Shown in pieces: positions 1 through 63,943 of a stretch of DNA of 64,000 nt. Within the stretch, counting starts at the first letter, position 1. The number at the start of each line of letters is the position of its first letter. The translations under genes were made by a program, and so were the position numbers. Source of the DNA: an uncultured Brachyspira sp. (lineage in GTDB: Bacteria > Spirochaetota > Brachyspiria > Brachyspirales > Brachyspiraceae). Under the pieces are notes generated by a model, which was given only the letters and a program-made list of their open reading frames with translations, made no database searches and was not told the origin of the DNA. The DNA is taken from NCBI RefSeq assembly GCF_944393015.1, contig NZ_CALXYQ010000006.1:1-64000 (forward strand). Direction: 5' to 3'.

Positions 1-183
1 AATGAAGAAGATATAGTAGATGATTACAGAGAAAATAACTATACTATGTCAGAGATATCTGATGAAGAGTTAGAAGAGATAGATGACGGTTATGTTAATG
101 AGAATGAAGAAGATATAGTAGATGATTACAGAGAAAATAACTATACTATGTCAGAGATATCTGATGAAGAGTTAGAAGAAATA
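1..183 (+). repeat. 102-bp coding repeat, two copies visible
   Basis: Bases 1-80 recur almost exactly from base 103, a period of 102 bp or 34 codons. Each copy encodes a segment containing NEEDIVDDYRENNYT followed by MSEISDEELEEI. The first copy begins at or before the window edge, so more copies may lie upstream. Confidence 0.85.
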
Positions 184-3100
184 AAAGATGAAGTTTCATT
201 ACCATTAGAAGAGTCAACAATAGAAGAGCCAACTTCCGAATTAGAGGAAGAAGAGATAACAGAAGAAGTTCCTGAATCAGTGGAGGAAACAAGAGAAGAA
301 GAACCAACTACTGAATTACAGGAAGAAGAAATAAAAGAAGAAATTCCTGAATCAGTAGAGGAAACAAGAGAAGAAGAACCAACTTCAGAAATACAGGAAG
401 AAAAGCCGGAATTAACTAATGATTATATCTCTAAGATGCATGATGAATATCTTAGAAGTCAGGAATCAAATAATCATCAAGAAGTTACAGATGATGATTA
501 CATATCTAAATTCAAAAAGATGAACGAGGAATATGTAGAAAGTCATAAGCAAGAAGAAAAACATCAAGAAGATATATCATCAGAAGTAGAAGAAGAATCA
601 ACAATAGAAGAGCCAACTACTGAATTAGAGGAAGAGGAAATAAAAGAAGAAGTTCCTGAATCAGTAGAGGAAACAAAAGCAGAAGAATCAACTTCTGAAA
701 TACATGAAGAAAAGCCGGAATTAACTAATGATTATATCTCTAAGATGCATGATGAATATCTTAGAAGTCAGGAATCAAATAATCATCAAGAAGTTACAGA
801 TGATGATTACATATCTAAATTCAAAAAGATGAACGAGGAATATGTAGAAAGTCATAAGCAAGAAGAAAAACATCAAGAAGATATATCATCAGAAGTAGAA
901 GAAGAATCAACAATAGAAGAGCCAACTACTGAATTAGAGGAAGAGGAAATAAAAGAAGAAATTCCTGAATCAGTAGAGGAAACAAAAGCAGAAGAATCAA
1001 CTTCTGAAATACAAGAAGAAAAGCTGGAATTAACTAATGATTATATCTCTAAGATGCATGATGAATATCTTAGAAATCAGGAATCAAATAATCATCAAGA
1101 AGCTTCAGATGATGACTACATATCTAAATTCAAAAAGATGAACGAGGAATATGTAGAAAGTCATAAGCAAAAAGAAAAACCTCGAGAAGATATACCATCA
1201 GAAGTAGAAGAAGAATCAACAATAGAAGAACCAACTACTGAATTACAGGAAGAAGAAGTTCCTGAATCAGTAGAAGAACCAATGACAGAAGAATTATCTT
1301 CTGAAATACAAGAAGAAAAGCCGGAATTAACTAATGATTATATCTCTAAGATGCATGATGAATATCTTAGAAATCAGGAATCAAATAATCATCAAGAAGT
1401 TACAAATGATGACTATATATCTAAATTCAAAAAGATGAACGAGGAATATGTAGAAAGTCATAAGCAAGAGGAAGTTTTAGAGTCAGTAGAAGAACCAAAA
1501 GAAGAATTATCTAATGAAATAGAAACAGCTGTAGAATCAGAAGAAGAAATAATTAATAATGAAGAGGATTTGACAGAAGAAGATAAATCTATGATAGAAA
1601 ACTATTTAGATAAAGTAGATGTTTTATCAGAAGATTTAACAGAAGAAGAAAAAGAATTATATAAAAGCTATTTAGCTAATACTATAGAAGAAAAAGAATC
1701 AGAAAATAAAGAAAAATCTGCCGAATCTCAAGAAGTAGAAAATAAAGAATCTGAAGAACCAATTTCTGAATCAGAACTTCAAGAAGATTATGATGAATTA
1801 ATAGCAGCAACAGAAATAAAAGTTGAAGAAACATCAGCTCCAATAAATGATGTAATAGAAGAACAAAAAGAAGAAGAATCAATACCTGAAACAGATGAAG
1901 AAATAAAAGAAGAGTTATCTGGAGCAGTTGAGGAAGTAGAAGAAGAAATAATTAATAATGAAGAGGATTTAACAGAAGAAGATAAATCTATGATAGAAAA
2001 CTATTTAGATAAAGTAGATGTTTTATCAGAAGATTTAACGGAAGAAGAAAAAGAATTATATAAAAGCTATTTAGCTAATACTATAGAAGAAAAAGAATCA
2101 GAAAATAAAGAAGAAGTAATTTCAGAAGAACCTGAAGAAACTTCCGAAGTAATAGAAGATCTAAAAGAAGAAGATATAACACCTGAAACAGAGGAAGAAA
2201 TAAAAGAAGAACTATCTGAAGCAGTTGATGAAGCAGCAGAAGAAGAAATCATCAATAATGAAGAAGATTTGACAGAAGAAGATAAATCTATGATCGAAGG
2301 CTATTTGGATAAAGTAGATACTTCATCAGAAGATTTAACAGACGAAGAAAAAGAATTATATCAAAATTATTTGTCTAATACTTCAGAGACTCAAGAAGTT
2401 GAAAGTGAAGAGGCAGAAAATAAAGAAGAAGTAATTTCAGAAGAACCTGAAGAAACTTCCGAAGTAATAGAAGAGCCAAAAGAAGAAGATATAACACCTG
2501 AATCACAGGAAGAAATAAAAGAAGAATTATCTGAAGCAGTTGAAGAAGCAGAAGAAGAAATCATCAATAATGAAGAAGATTTGACAGAAGAAGATAAATC
2601 TATGATCGAGGGCTATTTGGATAAAGTAGATACTTCATCAGAAGATTTAACAGACGAAGAAAAAGAATTATATCAAAACTATTTATCTAATGCAGAGTCT
2701 CAAGGATTAGAAATTGAAGAAGCAGAAGAAATCATCAATAATGAAGAAGATTTGACAGAAGAAGATAAATCTATGATCGAGGGCTATTTGGATAAAGTAG
2801 ATACTTCATCAGAAGATTTAACAGACGAAGAAAAAGAATTATATCAAAACTATTTATCTAATGCAGAGTCTCAAGGATTAGAAATTGAAGAAGCAGAAAA
2901 TAAAGAAGAAATTTCAGAAGTAGTAGAAGAACAAACAGAAGAAGAGCCAACATCTGAAGCAGAGGAAGAAATAAAAGAAGAACTATCTGAAGCAGTTGAT
3001 GAAGCAGCAGAAGAAGAAATCATCAATAATGAAGAAGATTTGACAGAAGAAGATAAATCTATGATCGAAGGCTATTTGGATAAAGTAGATACCTCATCAG

Positions 3101-4476
3101 AAGATTTAACAGATGAAGAAAAAGAATTATATCAAAATTATTTGTCTAATGCATCAGAGCCTCAAGAATCATCAGGTGAAGAAGCTGAAGAAACTTCCGA
3201 AGTAATAGAAGAGCCAAAAGAAGAAGAGTCAACACCTGAAGCAGAGGAAGAAATAAAAGAAGAATTGTCTGAAGCGGTTGAAGAAGCAGTAGAAGAAGAA
3301 ATAATTAATAATGAAGAAGATTTGACAGAAGAAGATAAATCTATGATCGAAGGCTATTTGGATAAAGTAGATACCTCATCAGAAGATTTAACAGACGAAG
3401 AAAAAGAATTATATCAAAACTATTTATCTAATACTGAATCTCAAGAAGTAGAAAATAAAGAAGAAACATCAGAACCAACTTCTGAATTACAAGAAGGTTT
3501 AATTTCAGAGCCTGAAGAAAATACAGCAGAAGAAACTTCCGAAGTAATAGAAGAAAAAGAAGAAGAGTCAACAGCTGAAACAGAGGAAGAAATAAAAGAA
3601 GAACTATCTGAAGCAGTTGATGAAGTAGAAGAAGAAATAATTAATAATGAAGAAGATTTGACAGAAGAAGACAAATCTATGATCGAGGGCTATTTGGATA
3701 AAGTAGATACCTCATCAGAAGATTTAACAGATGAAGAAAAAGAATTATATCAAAACTATTTATCTAATTCCGAAACTAATGAAGAAGAGCTTCAGGAAGA
3801 AGTATCGAATGATGAAAATAATGAATTACAAGAAGAAGTTAGCGATGAAGAATTAGAAGATCTCGTTTATATAAATAATGTTCAATTAGATGAGATAAGA
3901 GATTCTGATGTCAATATGCTTGAAAACATTATTAAAGGCAATGATGAAGATGGTGTAGAGCTTATAAGAATAAGTGATAAAATAAATGAGAATAATACTC
4001 AAGAAGATAATACTAAAGCAAAATCTTTAGAAAATTTTGATTCTATGGAAGAGCTTTTAAATAAGGAGACTAATATGTCTGAAGAAAAAGAATTAGAAAC
4101 TATTGAAAAAGAAAATCTAGATGACAACGTAGCAGTTGAGGAAGAGTTTAGTTTAGGTGATGACAATGAACCTATACTAATGGAAGATGAAAAACATACT
4201 GAAGATGATGAAGAAGATTTTGACGGAGAAATTACTCAGTCTGATTTAGATTATGCTATTAAGCTATTTGAATCTGAAGAATCTAGCGGACAGTCTAATG
4301 AGTATAGCTCTAAACATGATATATTATTATCAGAAAATGAAATTAATAAATTCAAGAAACTATTCGGATACTTCAAAAATATTGTGGAAAAAATGTCTCC
4401 TGAAGATTTAAATGATTTCTCTAAGACAGAATTTTACGATATGTACTCATCTTTATTTAGAAAATTTGGCGACTGA
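1..4476 (+). CDS. Very acidic tandem-repeat protein, 5' end outside window
   Basis: The reading frame is open from base 1; the first ATG inside the window (46) lies within a repeat unit that starts before the window, so the true start is upstream. At least 1491 residues are present, dominated by Glu, with Asp, Ser and Lys. Three repeat types follow in order: a 34-residue unit containing MSEISDEELEEI (two copies visible), a unit of about 100 residues containing NDYISKMHDEYLR and DDYISKFKKMNEEY (four copies), and a unit containing IINNEEDLTEEDKSMIE and EEKELYQNYLSN (eight copies). The last 200 residues are unique and end in a less acidic helical segment (NKFKKLFGYF). No membrane segment is visible in this part, and a signal peptide cannot be judged without the start. 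I do not recognise a family; such proteins are usually annotated hypothetical in Brachyspira. It ends at a terminator shared with pyrR. Confidence 0.85.
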   Translation, partial: NEEDIVDDYRENNYTMSEISDEELEEIDDGYVNENEEDIVDDYRENNYTMSEISDEELEEIKDEVSLPLEESTIEEPTSELEEEEITEEVPESVEETREEEPTTELQEEEIKEEIPESVEETREEEPTSEIQEEKPELTNDYISKMHDEYLRSQESNNHQEVTDDDYISKFKKMNEEYVESHKQEEKHQEDISSEVEEESTIEEPTTELEEEEIKEEVPESVEETKAEESTSEIHEEKPELTNDYISKMHDEYLRSQESNNHQEVTDDDYISKFKKMNEEYVESHKQEEKHQEDISSEVEEESTIEEPTTELEEEEIKEEIPESVEETKAEESTSEIQEEKLELTNDYISKMHDEYLRNQESNNHQEASDDDYISKFKKMNEEYVESHKQKEKPREDIPSEVEEESTIEEPTTELQEEEVPESVEEPMTEELSSEIQEEKPELTNDYISKMHDEYLRNQESNNHQEVTNDDYISKFKKMNEEYVESHKQEEVLESVEEPKEELSNEIETAVESEEEIINNEEDLTEEDKSMIENYLDKVDVLSEDLTEEEKELYKSYLANTIEEKESENKEKSAESQEVENKESEEPISESELQEDYDELIAATEIKVEETSAPINDVIEEQKEEESIPETDEEIKEELSGAVEEVEEEIINNEEDLTEEDKSMIENYLDKVDVLSEDLTEEEKELYKSYLANTIEEKESENKEEVISEEPEETSEVIEDLKEEDITPETEEEIKEELSEAVDEAAEEEIINNEEDLTEEDKSMIEGYLDKVDTSSEDLTDEEKELYQNYLSNTSETQEVESEEAENKEEVISEEPEETSEVIEEPKEEDITPESQEEIKEELSEAVEEAEEEIINNEEDLTEEDKSMIEGYLDKVDTSSEDLTDEEKELYQNYLSNAESQGLEIEEAEEIINNEEDLTEEDKSMIEGYLDKVDTSSEDLTDEEKELYQNYLSNAESQGLEIEEAENKEEISEVVEEQTEEEPTSEAEEEIKEELSEAVDEAAEEEIINNEEDLTEEDKSMIEGYLDKVDTSSEDLTDEEKELYQNYLSNASEPQESSGEEAEETSEVIEEPKEEESTPEAEEEIKEELSEAVEEAVEEEIINNEEDLTEEDKSMIEGYLDKVDTSSEDLTDEEKELYQNYLSNTESQEVENKEETSEPTSELQEGLISEPEENTAEETSEVIEEKEEESTAETEEEIKEELSEAVDEVEEEIINNEEDLTEEDKSMIEGYLDKVDTSSEDLTDEEKELYQNYLSNSETNEEELQEEVSNDENNELQEEVSDEELEDLVYINNVQLDEIRDSDVNMLENIIKGNDEDGVELIRISDKINENNTQEDNTKAKSLENFDSMEELLNKETNMSEEKELETIEKENLDDNVAVEEEFSLGDDNEPILMEDEKHTEDDEEDFDGEITQSDLDYAIKLFESEESSGQSNEYSSKHDILLSENEINKFKKLFGYFKNIVEKMSPEDLNDFSKTEFYDMYSSLFRKFGD
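412..1480 (+). repeat. Coding repeat of about 300 bp, four copies
   Basis: Copies begin at the TTAACTAATGAT motif at 412, 721, 1030 and 1327, giving periods of 309, 309 and 297 bp. The first two copies are nearly identical at the base level. Each encodes NDYISKMHDEYLR, then a short spacer, then DDYISKFKKMNEEYVESHK. All periods are multiples of three, so copy-number change keeps the frame. Confidence 0.85.
1540..3770 (+). repeat. Second coding repeat, eight copies, including a perfect 171-bp tandem
   Basis: Copies of the IINNEEDLTEEDKSMIE unit begin near 1540, 1939, 2239, 2551, 2722, 3010, 3292 and 3625, separated by Glu-rich spacers of varying length. The copies at about 2552 and 2723 are directly adjacent with a period of exactly 171 bp and look identical at the base level, including the linker. 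This suggests a recent duplication. Confidence 0.85.
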
Positions 4477-17262: not shown

Positions 17263-17508
17263 GATATACTAAAATCAATATATTGTCAAAAGTGCGAGCC
17301 GCACCACCAACCCGCACGGTATCGCTTATTCTTATCGAATGCCAACTATACGTGCGGCTGATTACTTATTATTATACAAAAACAAACAATTTATTTTACA
17401 TATAAAACATACTTTCTAAAAAGGAATAGTATTTTATACTATTAATAAATCAAAATTACATTCATAAATAAGTCAAAATTGACAAAATATAATTGTTTAG
17501 GTATATAC
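17263..17508. mobile_element. MITE-like non-coding element, copy 1 (GC-rich core)
   Basis: About 246 bp, bounded by GATATACTAAAA...TTGTCAA (17263-17289) and TTGACA-17-TATATA (17479-17507). The ends match the terminal repeats of the other copies. The core at 17291-17360 is strikingly GC-rich and contains GTGCG-AGC-CGCAC (17292-17304) and a longer-range pair AGCCGCAC (17297-17304) with GTGCGGCT (17352-17359). No ORF is visible. On the minus strand the left end reads TTGACA-17-TATCAT (17289-17261), directly upstream of the SWIM gene. With the fragment at 17502 and the secF terminator, this accounts for the 395-bp gap. Confidence 0.65.
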
Positions 17509-17525
17509 TAAAAATTTTTAAGTTT
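17502..17525. repeat. Lone left end of a second element, fused to copy 1
   Basis: TATATACTAAAAATTTTT followed by AAGTTT (17502-17525) matches the left terminus of the copies at 21545, 57525 and 62783, then diverges where GTCAA is expected. It shares TATATA with the right end of copy 1, as if one element inserted at the end of another or recombination left a solo end. Confidence 0.6.
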
Positions 17526-17568
17526 ATAAAAAATTATTTTTATATTGTTATAAAACTTTTATATTGAA

Positions 17569-20780: not shown

Positions 20781-20865
20781 GCTCGGGTGATGGAATTGGT
20801 AGACATAGCAGATTTAAAATCTGCTGGTCCTTGTGACCGTGCCGGTTCGATTCCGGCCCCGAGCA
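20781..20865 (+). tRNA. tRNA-Leu, anticodon UAA
   Basis: The 85-base class II tRNA has acceptor stem GCTCGGG (20781-20787) paired with CCCGAGC (20858-20864) and discriminator A. The anticodon arm is GCAGA-TTTAAAA-TCTGC with anticodon TAA. A long variable arm (GGTCCTTGTGACC) is followed by a T arm with GGTTCGATTCC. CCA is not encoded. Confidence 0.97.
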
Positions 20866-21544: not shown

Positions 21545-21889
21545 TATATAGTGAAAATTTTTAAGTTTGTCATTTTTTTATTCAACTTTTTCCCGCCGCA
21601 AAAAGAACCAAAAAATGCAAGTATAAAATTAGTGTTAAATCATACTATGATAGTATTACATATAAGATAGATAATTAATTTAAGCCTAAATGTAGACTTT
21701 CTCTGAAGGCGGGCTTCGCCTGTGGCAATACCATACCTACACTTACAGTGGACTTCGTCAGGTACTTTTTTCAGTCGCAGGCACTTCCTTTGGTTGCAAA
21801 AGAAGTGTGGTGTTGCGTAAGCACGCAGAGTTGCAGATATTTAAAATTTTAAAAAATTATTTTTTACAAAATATATTTTCAGCTATCAT
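21545..21889. mobile_element. MITE-like non-coding element, copy 2
   Basis: About 345 bp filling the gap between the DUF6506 gene and the broken chemotaxis gene. The left end TATATAGTGAAAATTTTT...GTTTGTCA (21545-21572) matches the family. The right end is degraded (TTTACA 21863-21868, TATCAT 21884-21889, spacing 15). The internal hairpin CAACTTTTT-CCCGCCGC-AAAAAGAAC lies at 21583-21608. A GC-rich stretch near 21705-21760 (GGCGGGCTTCGCC) forms further stems. No ORF is visible. Confidence 0.65.
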
Positions 21890-57524: not shown

Positions 57525-57802
57525 TATATACTAAAAATTTTTAAGTTTGTCAAAATTTAGATTTTTAATTTTATTGTTTGTGGGGACTAGCCCCCACACC
57601 CCCAGTTCTTTTATTGGTATAAAAGAACCAAAAAAACTGCATTTTTAACCCATATTTTAGGTATTACTACACATTTAATACATATTGTAGTAATATAAGG
57701 TTGTAGCACTTGCGTTTTTTGCAACTTTTTTGTGCGTCAAAAAGTTGATAATACATTTACAAAAATATTAAAATTGACAAAATGTAATTGTTTAGGTATA
57801 AA
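57525..57802. mobile_element. MITE-like non-coding element, copy 3
   Basis: About 278 bp between the lipase terminator and the nudix gene. The left end is TATATACTAAAAATTTTT...GTTTGTCAA (57525-57553). The right end is TTGACA (57774-57779), 17 bp, TATAAA (57797-57802). The GC hairpin GTGGGG-ACTAGC-CCCCAC lies at 57580-57597, and the conserved 9-8-9 hairpin CAACTTTTT-TGTGCGTC-AAAAAGTTG at 57722-57747. No ORF is visible. It fills most of the 343-bp gap. Confidence 0.7.
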
Positions 57803-62047: not shown

Positions 62048-62431
62048 TCATACATTTTTTATTTTTAATATATTGCCTTCAGTATCTATTATGATTATAT
62101 TACCATTAATTTCTATTTCATATTTATTTTTTCTTTTAATTATTCTGTATATATTGAAGCTTGTATATTTATATTTTATAGTTTTTATTACTTCTCTTTC
62201 AATAATATTATCTTCAGCAAGTTTTTCTACTATATTAAATGGTATTTCATTTCCGTTTCCTATTATAGAAGTCCATTCTCCTTTTGTATTAAAATTAATT
62301 GAACTTCCGCCTTTAAATACTGCACTATATGATGAATTAAATGTTACTTTAAATAAATAGTATTCAGAGAAATATGTTTCTATAAAGTTTCTTGCTTTTT
62401 GAGGCAGGCTTTTTGATGAAAGAATATCCAT
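62048..62431 (-). CDS. PepSY-like domain protein without signal peptide
   Basis: The 127-residue protein matches the PepSY-like (beta-lactamase-inhibitor-like) family: LPQKARNFIETYFSEY, then the conserved VFKGGSSINFNTKGEWTSIIGN, then IDTEGNILKIK. Its paralogue at 63162 has the same core and a signal peptide, but this copy starts directly at the domain (ATG 62431 with AAGGAT upstream). It may therefore be cytoplasmic or a remnant that lost its export signal. A 47-residue ORF ends 32 bp upstream and is probably co-transcribed. Confidence 0.8.
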   Translation of the reverse strand: MDILSSKSLPQKARNFIETYFSEYYLFKVTFNSSYSAVFKGGSSINFNTKGEWTSIIGNGNEIPFNIVEKLAEDNIIEREVIKTIKYKYTSFNIYRIIKRKNKYEIEINGNIIIIDTEGNILKIKNV

Positions 62432-62463: not shown

Positions 62464-62607
62464 TTATTTATTTTCTTCGTTCTTTTCTTTTTCTATCATA
62501 TCTTCTAAATATGCCTTTAAGAAAATATAATTGTGAACATCTGCAAGATTTTGATTATTGTCGATTTTTTTGTTTAGAAATTCCACTAATTCTTCTTTTG
62601 TTTTCAT
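62464..62607 (-). CDS. Small hypothetical protein, 47 residues
   Basis: ATG 62607 has AAAGGAG at good spacing, and the frame encodes a charged helical peptide beginning MKTKEELVEFLNKKIDNNQ and ending in a Glu/Lys/Asn tail (MIEKEKNEENK). No membrane segment or known motif is visible. Clear ribosome site, normal codon use and position directly before the PepSY-like gene support it as a real small gene. The outward promoter of the element at 62783 lies about 176 bases upstream and reads towards it. Confidence 0.65.
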   Translation of the reverse strand: MKTKEELVEFLNKKIDNNQNLADVHNYIFLKAYLEDMIEKEKNEENK

Positions 62608-62782
62608 ATAAGCTCCTTTAATAATTTAAGTAATAATTTTTGGGTTAAACAATATAATATTATTTGCAGTATGTCAATCTATAATTAGTATATAGAATTG
62701 TTTAAAATAGAGTATCAAAAATGTATTCGAAGCCAAATAATTTTAACTTTTTTATAAATACTTATTATTTATCAATTGTGAT

Positions 62783-63107
62783 TATATACTGAAAATTTTT
62801 AAGTTTGTCAATTTTTATATTGTTCTTTTTCCCGCCGCAAAAAGAACCAAAAAGTGCAAATGTAAAATTAATACTAAATCATATTGACTTTGTTTTACAT
62901 GTATATAAATTATTAATTTAAGATAAAATATAGCCCTTCGCCGTAGGCGGGCTGTGCCTGCTTCTCGCTGTAGGCGTACTTCGTATGTGGCACGCCACAG
63001 GCAACTCCCTACGGTCGCAAAAGAAGTGGGGTCTGTGGCAAAGCCCCAGATATAACAACAAAAATATAAATTGGTTTTTTGACAAAATGTAATTGTTTAG
63101 GTATATA
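62783..63107. mobile_element. MITE-like non-coding element, copy 4 (best preserved)
   Basis: About 325 bp. The left end TATATACTGAAAATTTTT...GTTTGTCAA runs from 62783 to 62811. The right end is TTGACA (63079-63084), 17 bp, TATATA (63102-63107). The conserved hairpin GTTCTTTTT-CCCGCCGC-AAAAAGAAC lies at 62822-62847. The interior 62935-63050 is GC-rich with several short stems (GGCGGGCTGTGCCTG; GTGGCACGCCAC). No ORF. It explains most of the 554-bp gap between the small ORF and the second PepSY-like gene. Confidence 0.75.
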
Positions 63108-63161: not shown

Positions 63162-63617
63162 TTAGGCTTTTTTTGTTTTTAAAATATTTCCGTCATAATC
63201 TATATAGATGTAATATGCATTATCTACTTTAAATTCATAGCCTTTGCTTCTTTTATATATATTATTTATGTTTGTATATTTGTTTTTTATGATATTCATA
63301 ATTTTACTGTCAATAAATTTTTCAGCTGTACTTATCTGTATTATTTTTCTATTTCCTATTATAGAAGTCCATTCGCCTTTTCTATTAAAGTTTATAGATG
63401 AACCGCCTTTAAAAATAACCATATAATGAGTGGATACTGCAGCACTATACACTTCATATTCGTTAAAGTATGTATTTACGAATTCCTGAATATTATTAGG
63501 AAGAGAGGTATATGGTACAAACTGAATATTTCTTTCATCATCGAAAAATAAAAATGAGGAGGACACTATATATAATATTAATATTAAAAAATAAAATTTT
63601 ATATTATATTTTTTCAT
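63162..63617 (-). CDS. Exported PepSY-like domain protein
   Basis: The 151-residue protein has an N-terminal signal peptide (KFYFLILILYIVSSSFLFF) and a PepSY-like domain: LPNNIQEFVNTYFNEYEVY, VIFKGGSSINFNRKGEWTSI, and the final IDYDGNILKTKKA. It is a close paralogue of the 62048 gene; the two flank the element at 62783. Such domains occur in periplasmic proteins of Bacteroidetes and spirochaetes with unknown ligands. The ATG at 63617 is preceded by AAGGCGGA. The left-end promoter of the element at 63650 ends 32 bases upstream and appears to be the promoter of this gene. Confidence 0.85.
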   Translation of the reverse strand: MKKYNIKFYFLILILYIVSSSFLFFDDERNIQFVPYTSLPNNIQEFVNTYFNEYEVYSAAVSTHYMVIFKGGSSINFNRKGEWTSIIGNRKIIQISTAEKFIDSKIMNIIKNKYTNINNIYKRSKGYEFKVDNAYYIYIDYDGNILKTKKA

Positions 63618-63649: not shown

Positions 63650-63943
63650 TATATACTGAAACAAATATATTTTGTCAAAAATTATTTTATTATTTTTATT
63701 ATTTGTGGGGACTAGCCCCCACACCCCCAGTTCTTTTGTTGCCACAAAGAAGCTATATCCTCGACAAGCTCAGATACGCTTCGCGAAAGGCTATATTTAA
63801 ACTTAAATGTAATAAATTATTTTACATGTAATACAATTTTAGTATGATTTATCACTAATTTTATATTTGCACTTTTTGCAACTTTTTGCGGCGGGAAAAA
63901 GTTGAATAAAAGAATTGACAAACTTAAACATTTTCAGTATATA
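63650..63943. mobile_element. MITE-like non-coding element, copy 5 (opposite orientation)
   Basis: About 294 bp, oriented opposite to copy 4 as judged by the internal hairpin. The ends are TATATACTGAAA...TTTTGTCAA (63650-63678) and TTGACA-17-TATATA (63915-63943). The GC hairpin GTGGGG-ACTAGC-CCCCAC lies at 63705-63722, as in copy 3. The conserved hairpin CAACTTTTT-GCGGCGGG-AAAAAGTTG lies at 63879-63904. No ORF. The remaining 57 bases to the window edge show nothing recognisable. Confidence 0.75.

Follow-up and report, generated by a model that had tools for sequence, protein, structure and literature searches.

Organization of the window and its repeat elements

The stretch of DNA analysed here (64,000 nucleotides, hereafter the window) constitutes the start of contig 6 of a Brachyspira genome of 3.44 Mb in 111 contigs, and genes are given according to simple coding-potential calls made for the present analysis. 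At positions 46-4476, the window contains a long, repetitive, acidic open reading frame (ORF) with several direct-repeat families (units of around 300 nt). Its sole Rfam match is a tRNA at 20781-20865, and a TilS-like gene exhibits PP-loop and TilS_C domains and is 83-96% alike to its matches in Brachyspira records. Two adjoining PepSY-like genes, 75% alike over 116 nt (62202-62317 compared to 63298-63413), probably represent a tandem duplication.

The left end of the focal element is located upstream of a small ORF (62464-62607) at a distance of 180 bp; this ORF keeps a promoter-like block of its own. A second element has its left end upstream of the PepSY-like gene 63162-63617, at a distance of 37 bp (Table 1). 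As originally predicted, TTGACA-N17-TATATA is found in exact form, reading outward, at both ends of the focal element. The 17-bp spacing is likewise present at the other ends for which it had been claimed: those starting at 57525, 63650, 63915, and 17479 are exact, whereas those at 57774 and 21545 retain the spacing with one mismatch each in the hexamers (TATAAA and ATGACA, respectively).

Allowing at most one mismatch, the motif occurs 9 times in the window (2.16 expected; 0 of 100 shuffles reach 9). Genome-wide, TTGACA-N4..30-TATATA yields 371 matches compared to 102 in the reversed control. Within a sample of 854 kb, consisting of stretches of the G000 genome, 53 of such matches have the spacing of 17, and any other spacing is represented by 8 or fewer.

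Table 1. Elements, element ends, and associated promoters in the window (upper part) and loci compared among Brachyspira genomes (lower part)
Feature	Position (strand) or genomes	Remarks
Focal MITE, TAC...GTA	62787..63103	317 bp; A left, B right
A-type outward end, TTGACA-17-TATATA	62783..62811 (-)	62787-62788 element TA; 62785-62786 TA duplication; 62783-62784 flank
B-type outward end, TTGACA-17-TATATA	63079..63107 (+)	Antisense, faces 3' end of gene 63162-63617
Promoter-like block of ORF 62464-62607, TTGACA-15-TATATT	62651..62677 (-)	Kept in element-free relatives
Second MITE	63654..63939	B left, A right
B-type end at promoter of PepSY-like gene 63162-63617	63650..63678 (-)	Relatives G009, G007, G025, G024: TTGAAA-16-TATATT
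A-type outward end	63915..63943 (+)	Antisense to gene 64149-64676 (just past the window)
MITE between convergent genes	57529..57798	
A-type end of 57529-57798 element	57525..57553 (-)	
B-type end of 57529-57798 element	57774..57802 (+)	TATAAA
B-type end	17479..17507 (+)	TATATA common to solo A end 17502-17530 (-)
Solo decayed A-type end	17502..17530 (-)	TTTATA at -35
A-type end, ATGACA	21545..21573 (-)	Abuts decayed solo A end
Chorismate mutase/prephenate dehydratase-like gene (bifunctional)	G000, G009, G025, G007	TTGACA-17-TATAAT; element-free: TTTACA-17-TATAAT
birA	G000, G024	Element gives TTGACA-17-TATAAT, same ATG; >20 species: TTGATA-16/17-TATAAT or close form, ATG 6-8 bp on
smpB	G024, G025	-35 swap
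L300 gene (94-aa protein)	G000 contig 17	-35 swap
RavA-like ATPase gene	G010, G008	-35 swap
cutC	G008	-35 swap
Rpn-like loci	L267, L270, L280, L284, L286, L288, L292, and others; G000 C2:35222-35250	

The element family

The motif forms the terminus of a repeat family, namely MITEs of the IS630 type with two main types of ends, A and B, and a duplication of the target TA. Type A reads TTGACAAACTTAAAAATTTT[CT]AGTATA and type B reads TTGACAAAATATA[AGT]TTGTTTAGGTATA; both face outward, and the element cores comprise 184-439 bp. A/B pairs make up 41 of the 48 complete copies in the 854-kb sample. The longest inner ATG frame in any copy encodes 58 aa, i.e., these are short elements devoid of a transposase gene. 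One TATATA is often common to adjoining copies. A rarer type C end (TCGGCAAAATGAAATCATTTCAG; TCGGCA/TTGGCA...TATA) lacks TTGACA. Of 26 Brachyspira genomes, the family is present in at least 21, exact A ends being found in this number. A literature search, for which subscription journals were mostly out of reach, returned nothing on this element family in Brachyspira.

A full-size relative of 1060 bp (G016 L112:822-1881) possesses an A end on the left, a B end on the right, and a broken transposase, whose C-terminal part matches Pfam DDE_3 (E 1e-11) and whose N-terminal part is HTH-like with weak matches. In two further genomes (G015 and G024), numerous contigs terminate at element ends from which such transposase coding sequence continues. 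An N-terminal query recovered no intact transposase in the Brachyspira genomes examined. The assignment to the MITEs of the IS630/Tc1-mariner group is based on the TA duplication, the short terminal inverted repeats without a transposase gene, and the full-size DDE_3 relative, and not on a match to a named IS.

Concerning the terminal TATATA, the ends that do not abut another element exhibit a nearly invariant TATA, followed by TA in around 80% and then by C or T. In alignments to empty sites (the birA, smpB, L300, and L271 loci), the six extra letters correspond to the two TA of the element plus the TA duplication, and the element boundaries are placed at TAC...GTA, in line with what the IS630 family would predict. 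Judged by these alignments, TATATA is composed of two letters of the element, two of the duplicated target, and two of plain host DNA; the earlier view of the whole hexamer as the element tip had to be given up, only the first TA belonging to the element. A 4-bp duplication (TATA) was the first reading of the C6 copies, for which the empty sites in three relatives are mostly too diverged, and was dropped after cleaner empty sites had been obtained. The NUDIX/hydrolase site was unusable as an empty site, an element being present there in all six close species.

Promoter likeness and orientation of the element ends

The spacer differs between the two types of terminus, as had been noticed, but the two simply belong to opposite ends, left and right, of one element. 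Within each end type, the spacer itself is conserved at around 93-94% (mean non-consensus 6% in A and 7.5% in B), such that the notion of a conserved spacing rather than sequence proved wrong. TTGACA, with 8% (A) and 4.5% (B) non-consensus, is not clearly better kept than the spacer. The 17 bp are fixed because the length of the terminal repeat sets the spacing.

Of the outer ends that face a called gene (79), 28 are directed toward its start and 51 toward its 3' end, i.e., in antisense; random intergenic placement based on length predicts a sense share of around 56% (p = 4e-4). Furthermore, the elements shun divergent and favour convergent regions (4 divergent, 11 convergent, and 24 co-directional, compared to 96, 75, and 377, respectively). 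Resident promoters of the host are of the form TTGACA-16/17-TATAAT, and TTGACA-17-TATATA was seen in none of 500 upstream regions with elements masked. In a comparison with sigma-70-type promoters, TTGACA and the spacing fit the host, whereas TATATA does not fit TATAAT; junctions of the TATAAT type do. At several non-TATAAT sites, the -35 has decayed in orthologous copies.

These data bear on the original prediction that every end is an active promoter, maintained by selection for that activity. It draws on the presence of TTGACA at 17 bp from TATA in both ends, and it is very improbable given the equally conserved spacer, the antisense bias, the avoidance of divergent regions, the mismatch of TATATA to the host -10, and the decay of -35 sequences. 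The conserved spacing as a sign of promoter selection is unsupported, with the spacer equally kept and 51 of 79 ends antisense. General selection for promoter function at element ends is not supported by the sequence comparisons, and most copies are probably silent as promoters.

The same features suit an alternative in which any resemblance to promoters would be incidental: the transposase would bind and cleave TTGACA together with the TA tip, and no useful transcription would start from the ends. TTGACA no better conserved than the spacer, the antisense excess, and the difference between TATATA and the host -10 are all consistent with it, as is the overlap of the transposase stop codon TGA with the TTGACA of end B in the full-size relatives. 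It appears somewhat unlikely, nevertheless, in view of six loci at which an element end with preserved -10 and spacing is the only visible promoter of intact conserved genes, and of the sense bias of TATAAT junctions (both described below).

Within the window, neither end of the focal element has the look of a required promoter. For the element at 57525, RNA from either end would be antisense. Across six close species, this site (57525-57802; L114-L119) contains the same element, different or reversed ones, or a tandem pair; in G007, G023, G024, and G025, the different or reversed elements have identical insertion points, as if elements were exchanged there. The element at 63650, on the other hand, probably entered the -10 region of the PepSY-like gene and replaced its -35; this swap is graded as probable because the alignment was limited to the gene-side flank.

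TATAAT junctions and replacement of -35 sequences

Where the host letters at the junction are AT, the result is TTGACA-17-TATAAT. Element-like ends forming TATAAT number 30 in sense and 5 in antisense genus-wide, a count that includes orthologous loci as well as Rpn-like genes whose own promoters resemble the A end. This differs from the TATATA ends in G000 (16 sense, 33 antisense; Fisher p = 1.7e-6) and from all intergenic TATAAT (751 sense, 500 antisense; p = 0.002). Unique partnered loci, counted by hand, give 14:3 (p = 0.08 compared to background). Within the 854-kb sample, just around 3 of the 83 outer ends are situated at a native -10.

At six loci (Table 1), comparison with element-free relatives shows that the putative native -35 has been replaced: the insertion is situated in the middle TA of the native -10, and the element TTGACA is found where the native -35 was. 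In the chorismate mutase/prephenate dehydratase-like gene, the -10 and the downstream sequence are unchanged next to the element end. In birA with the element, the ATG follows 7 bp after TATAAT, so that there is no room for another promoter in between. TATAAT and the spacing are kept at all six loci, the element end being the only visible promoter before intact conserved genes; the five genes other than that of the 94-aa protein also match their families. A further swap locus is probable in G008/G010, and at three loci the native promoter or site has gained an adjacent new TATAAT through the element. By inference, these hybrid promoters drive transcription, and some copies have been retained through their promoter function. 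The designation as mobile promoters is supported in a restricted sense, for portable promoter parts at these six loci and probably two more, but not as a general rule for all ends.

Two other groups of genes exhibit similar upstream sequences. An A-type TATAAT end precedes a lolCE-like gene in G011, G012, G013, G014, and G017 (L272, L274, L297, L299, L320, L329), and this insertion is apparently old and kept. Several Rpn-like genes (recombination-promoting nuclease-like, named by eye) start with TTGACAAA...TTT.AGTATAATN6ATG; their promoters look leaderless and closely resemble the element end.

Proposed mechanism

Taken together, it is likely that the motifs are terminal inverted repeats of an IS630-type MITE whose insertions into -10 sequences swap the -35 and spare the promoter. 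Mobilization of the family would be due to a transposase of the IS630 type (DDE_3); both the A and the B end hold TTGACA 17 bp inside the TA tip. Insertion duplicates the host TA, and the junction becomes TTGACA-17-TA(element)TA(duplication)NN(host); the host letters would decide whether a promoter results, and most targets (TATATA and similar ones) probably give none. Where an element enters the central TA of a native TATAAT, the -10 is rebuilt and the element TTGACA takes the place of the native -35, which is displaced some 260-470 bp upstream.

The recurrence of independent insertions in the middle of TATAAT might also reflect a transposase that prefers -10 boxes as targets, rather than better survival of insertions into them. 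Single copies, however, are mostly situated outside promoters, at sites resembling TATATA(C), and a survival bias accounts for the pattern equally, which makes such a preference quite improbable. A rather doubtful extension of the promoter-sparing mechanism is that the ends have evolved as promoter-sparing termini, with a -35 at the exact distance from the TA tip that would permit entry into TATAAT in either orientation, the gene being transcribed from the hybrid promoter. If true, an element targeting TA would find safe harbours in promoters and rewire the -35 regions of a whole genus.

The loci described here constitute natural pairs of promoters before and after insertion, in which the -35 and the spacer change and the -10, start codon, and gene remain constant (birA, smpB, chorismate mutase). 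They make directly testable an old question, namely how mobile elements survive in promoters and reshape them.

Comparison with known systems

The TA duplication, the inverted repeats, and the DDE_3 domain of the full-size relative are features shared with IS630/Tc1-mariner insertion sequences (ISY100, PMC2170065) and their MITEs. Outward -35 sequences at the ends of IS1, IS2, IS30, IS256, and others form fusion promoters with a host -10, and in a case concerning IS2 the supplied -35 changed the spacing from 16 to 17 (PMC9330008). Those are full insertion sequences, reviewed mainly as activators of resistance genes (PMC9330008), whereas the Brachyspira family consists of MITEs that carry a -35 at each end and account for several swaps fixed in housekeeping genes.

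The closest similarity is to the Correia elements (CREE/NEMIS) of Neisseria, which are likewise short, non-autonomous, present in many copies, and outward-directed on either side, their most frequent flanking repeat being a TA duplication (PMC9330008). In their 'Black promoter', the element supplies a -35 and part of a -10, which the insertion completes (PMC2649163); the same arrangement, completed by the insertion site, is found in the Brachyspira family, here as read from the sequence only. Despite this general similarity, there are differences: CREE termini read TATAG[CT]GGATTAA..., whereas the Brachyspira ends read TATATAC[TC][GTA]AAA...TTTGTCAA, and as the terminal sequence is not shared, the family is not a member of the Correia elements. 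Moreover, the consensus TTGACA at 17 bp is present in both the A and the B end in Brachyspira, where comparison with empty sites reveals the capture of native -10 boxes. The Brachyspira family would work like the 'Black promoter', a mechanism already known, and represent a Correia-like solution in spirochaetes with an unrelated terminal sequence.
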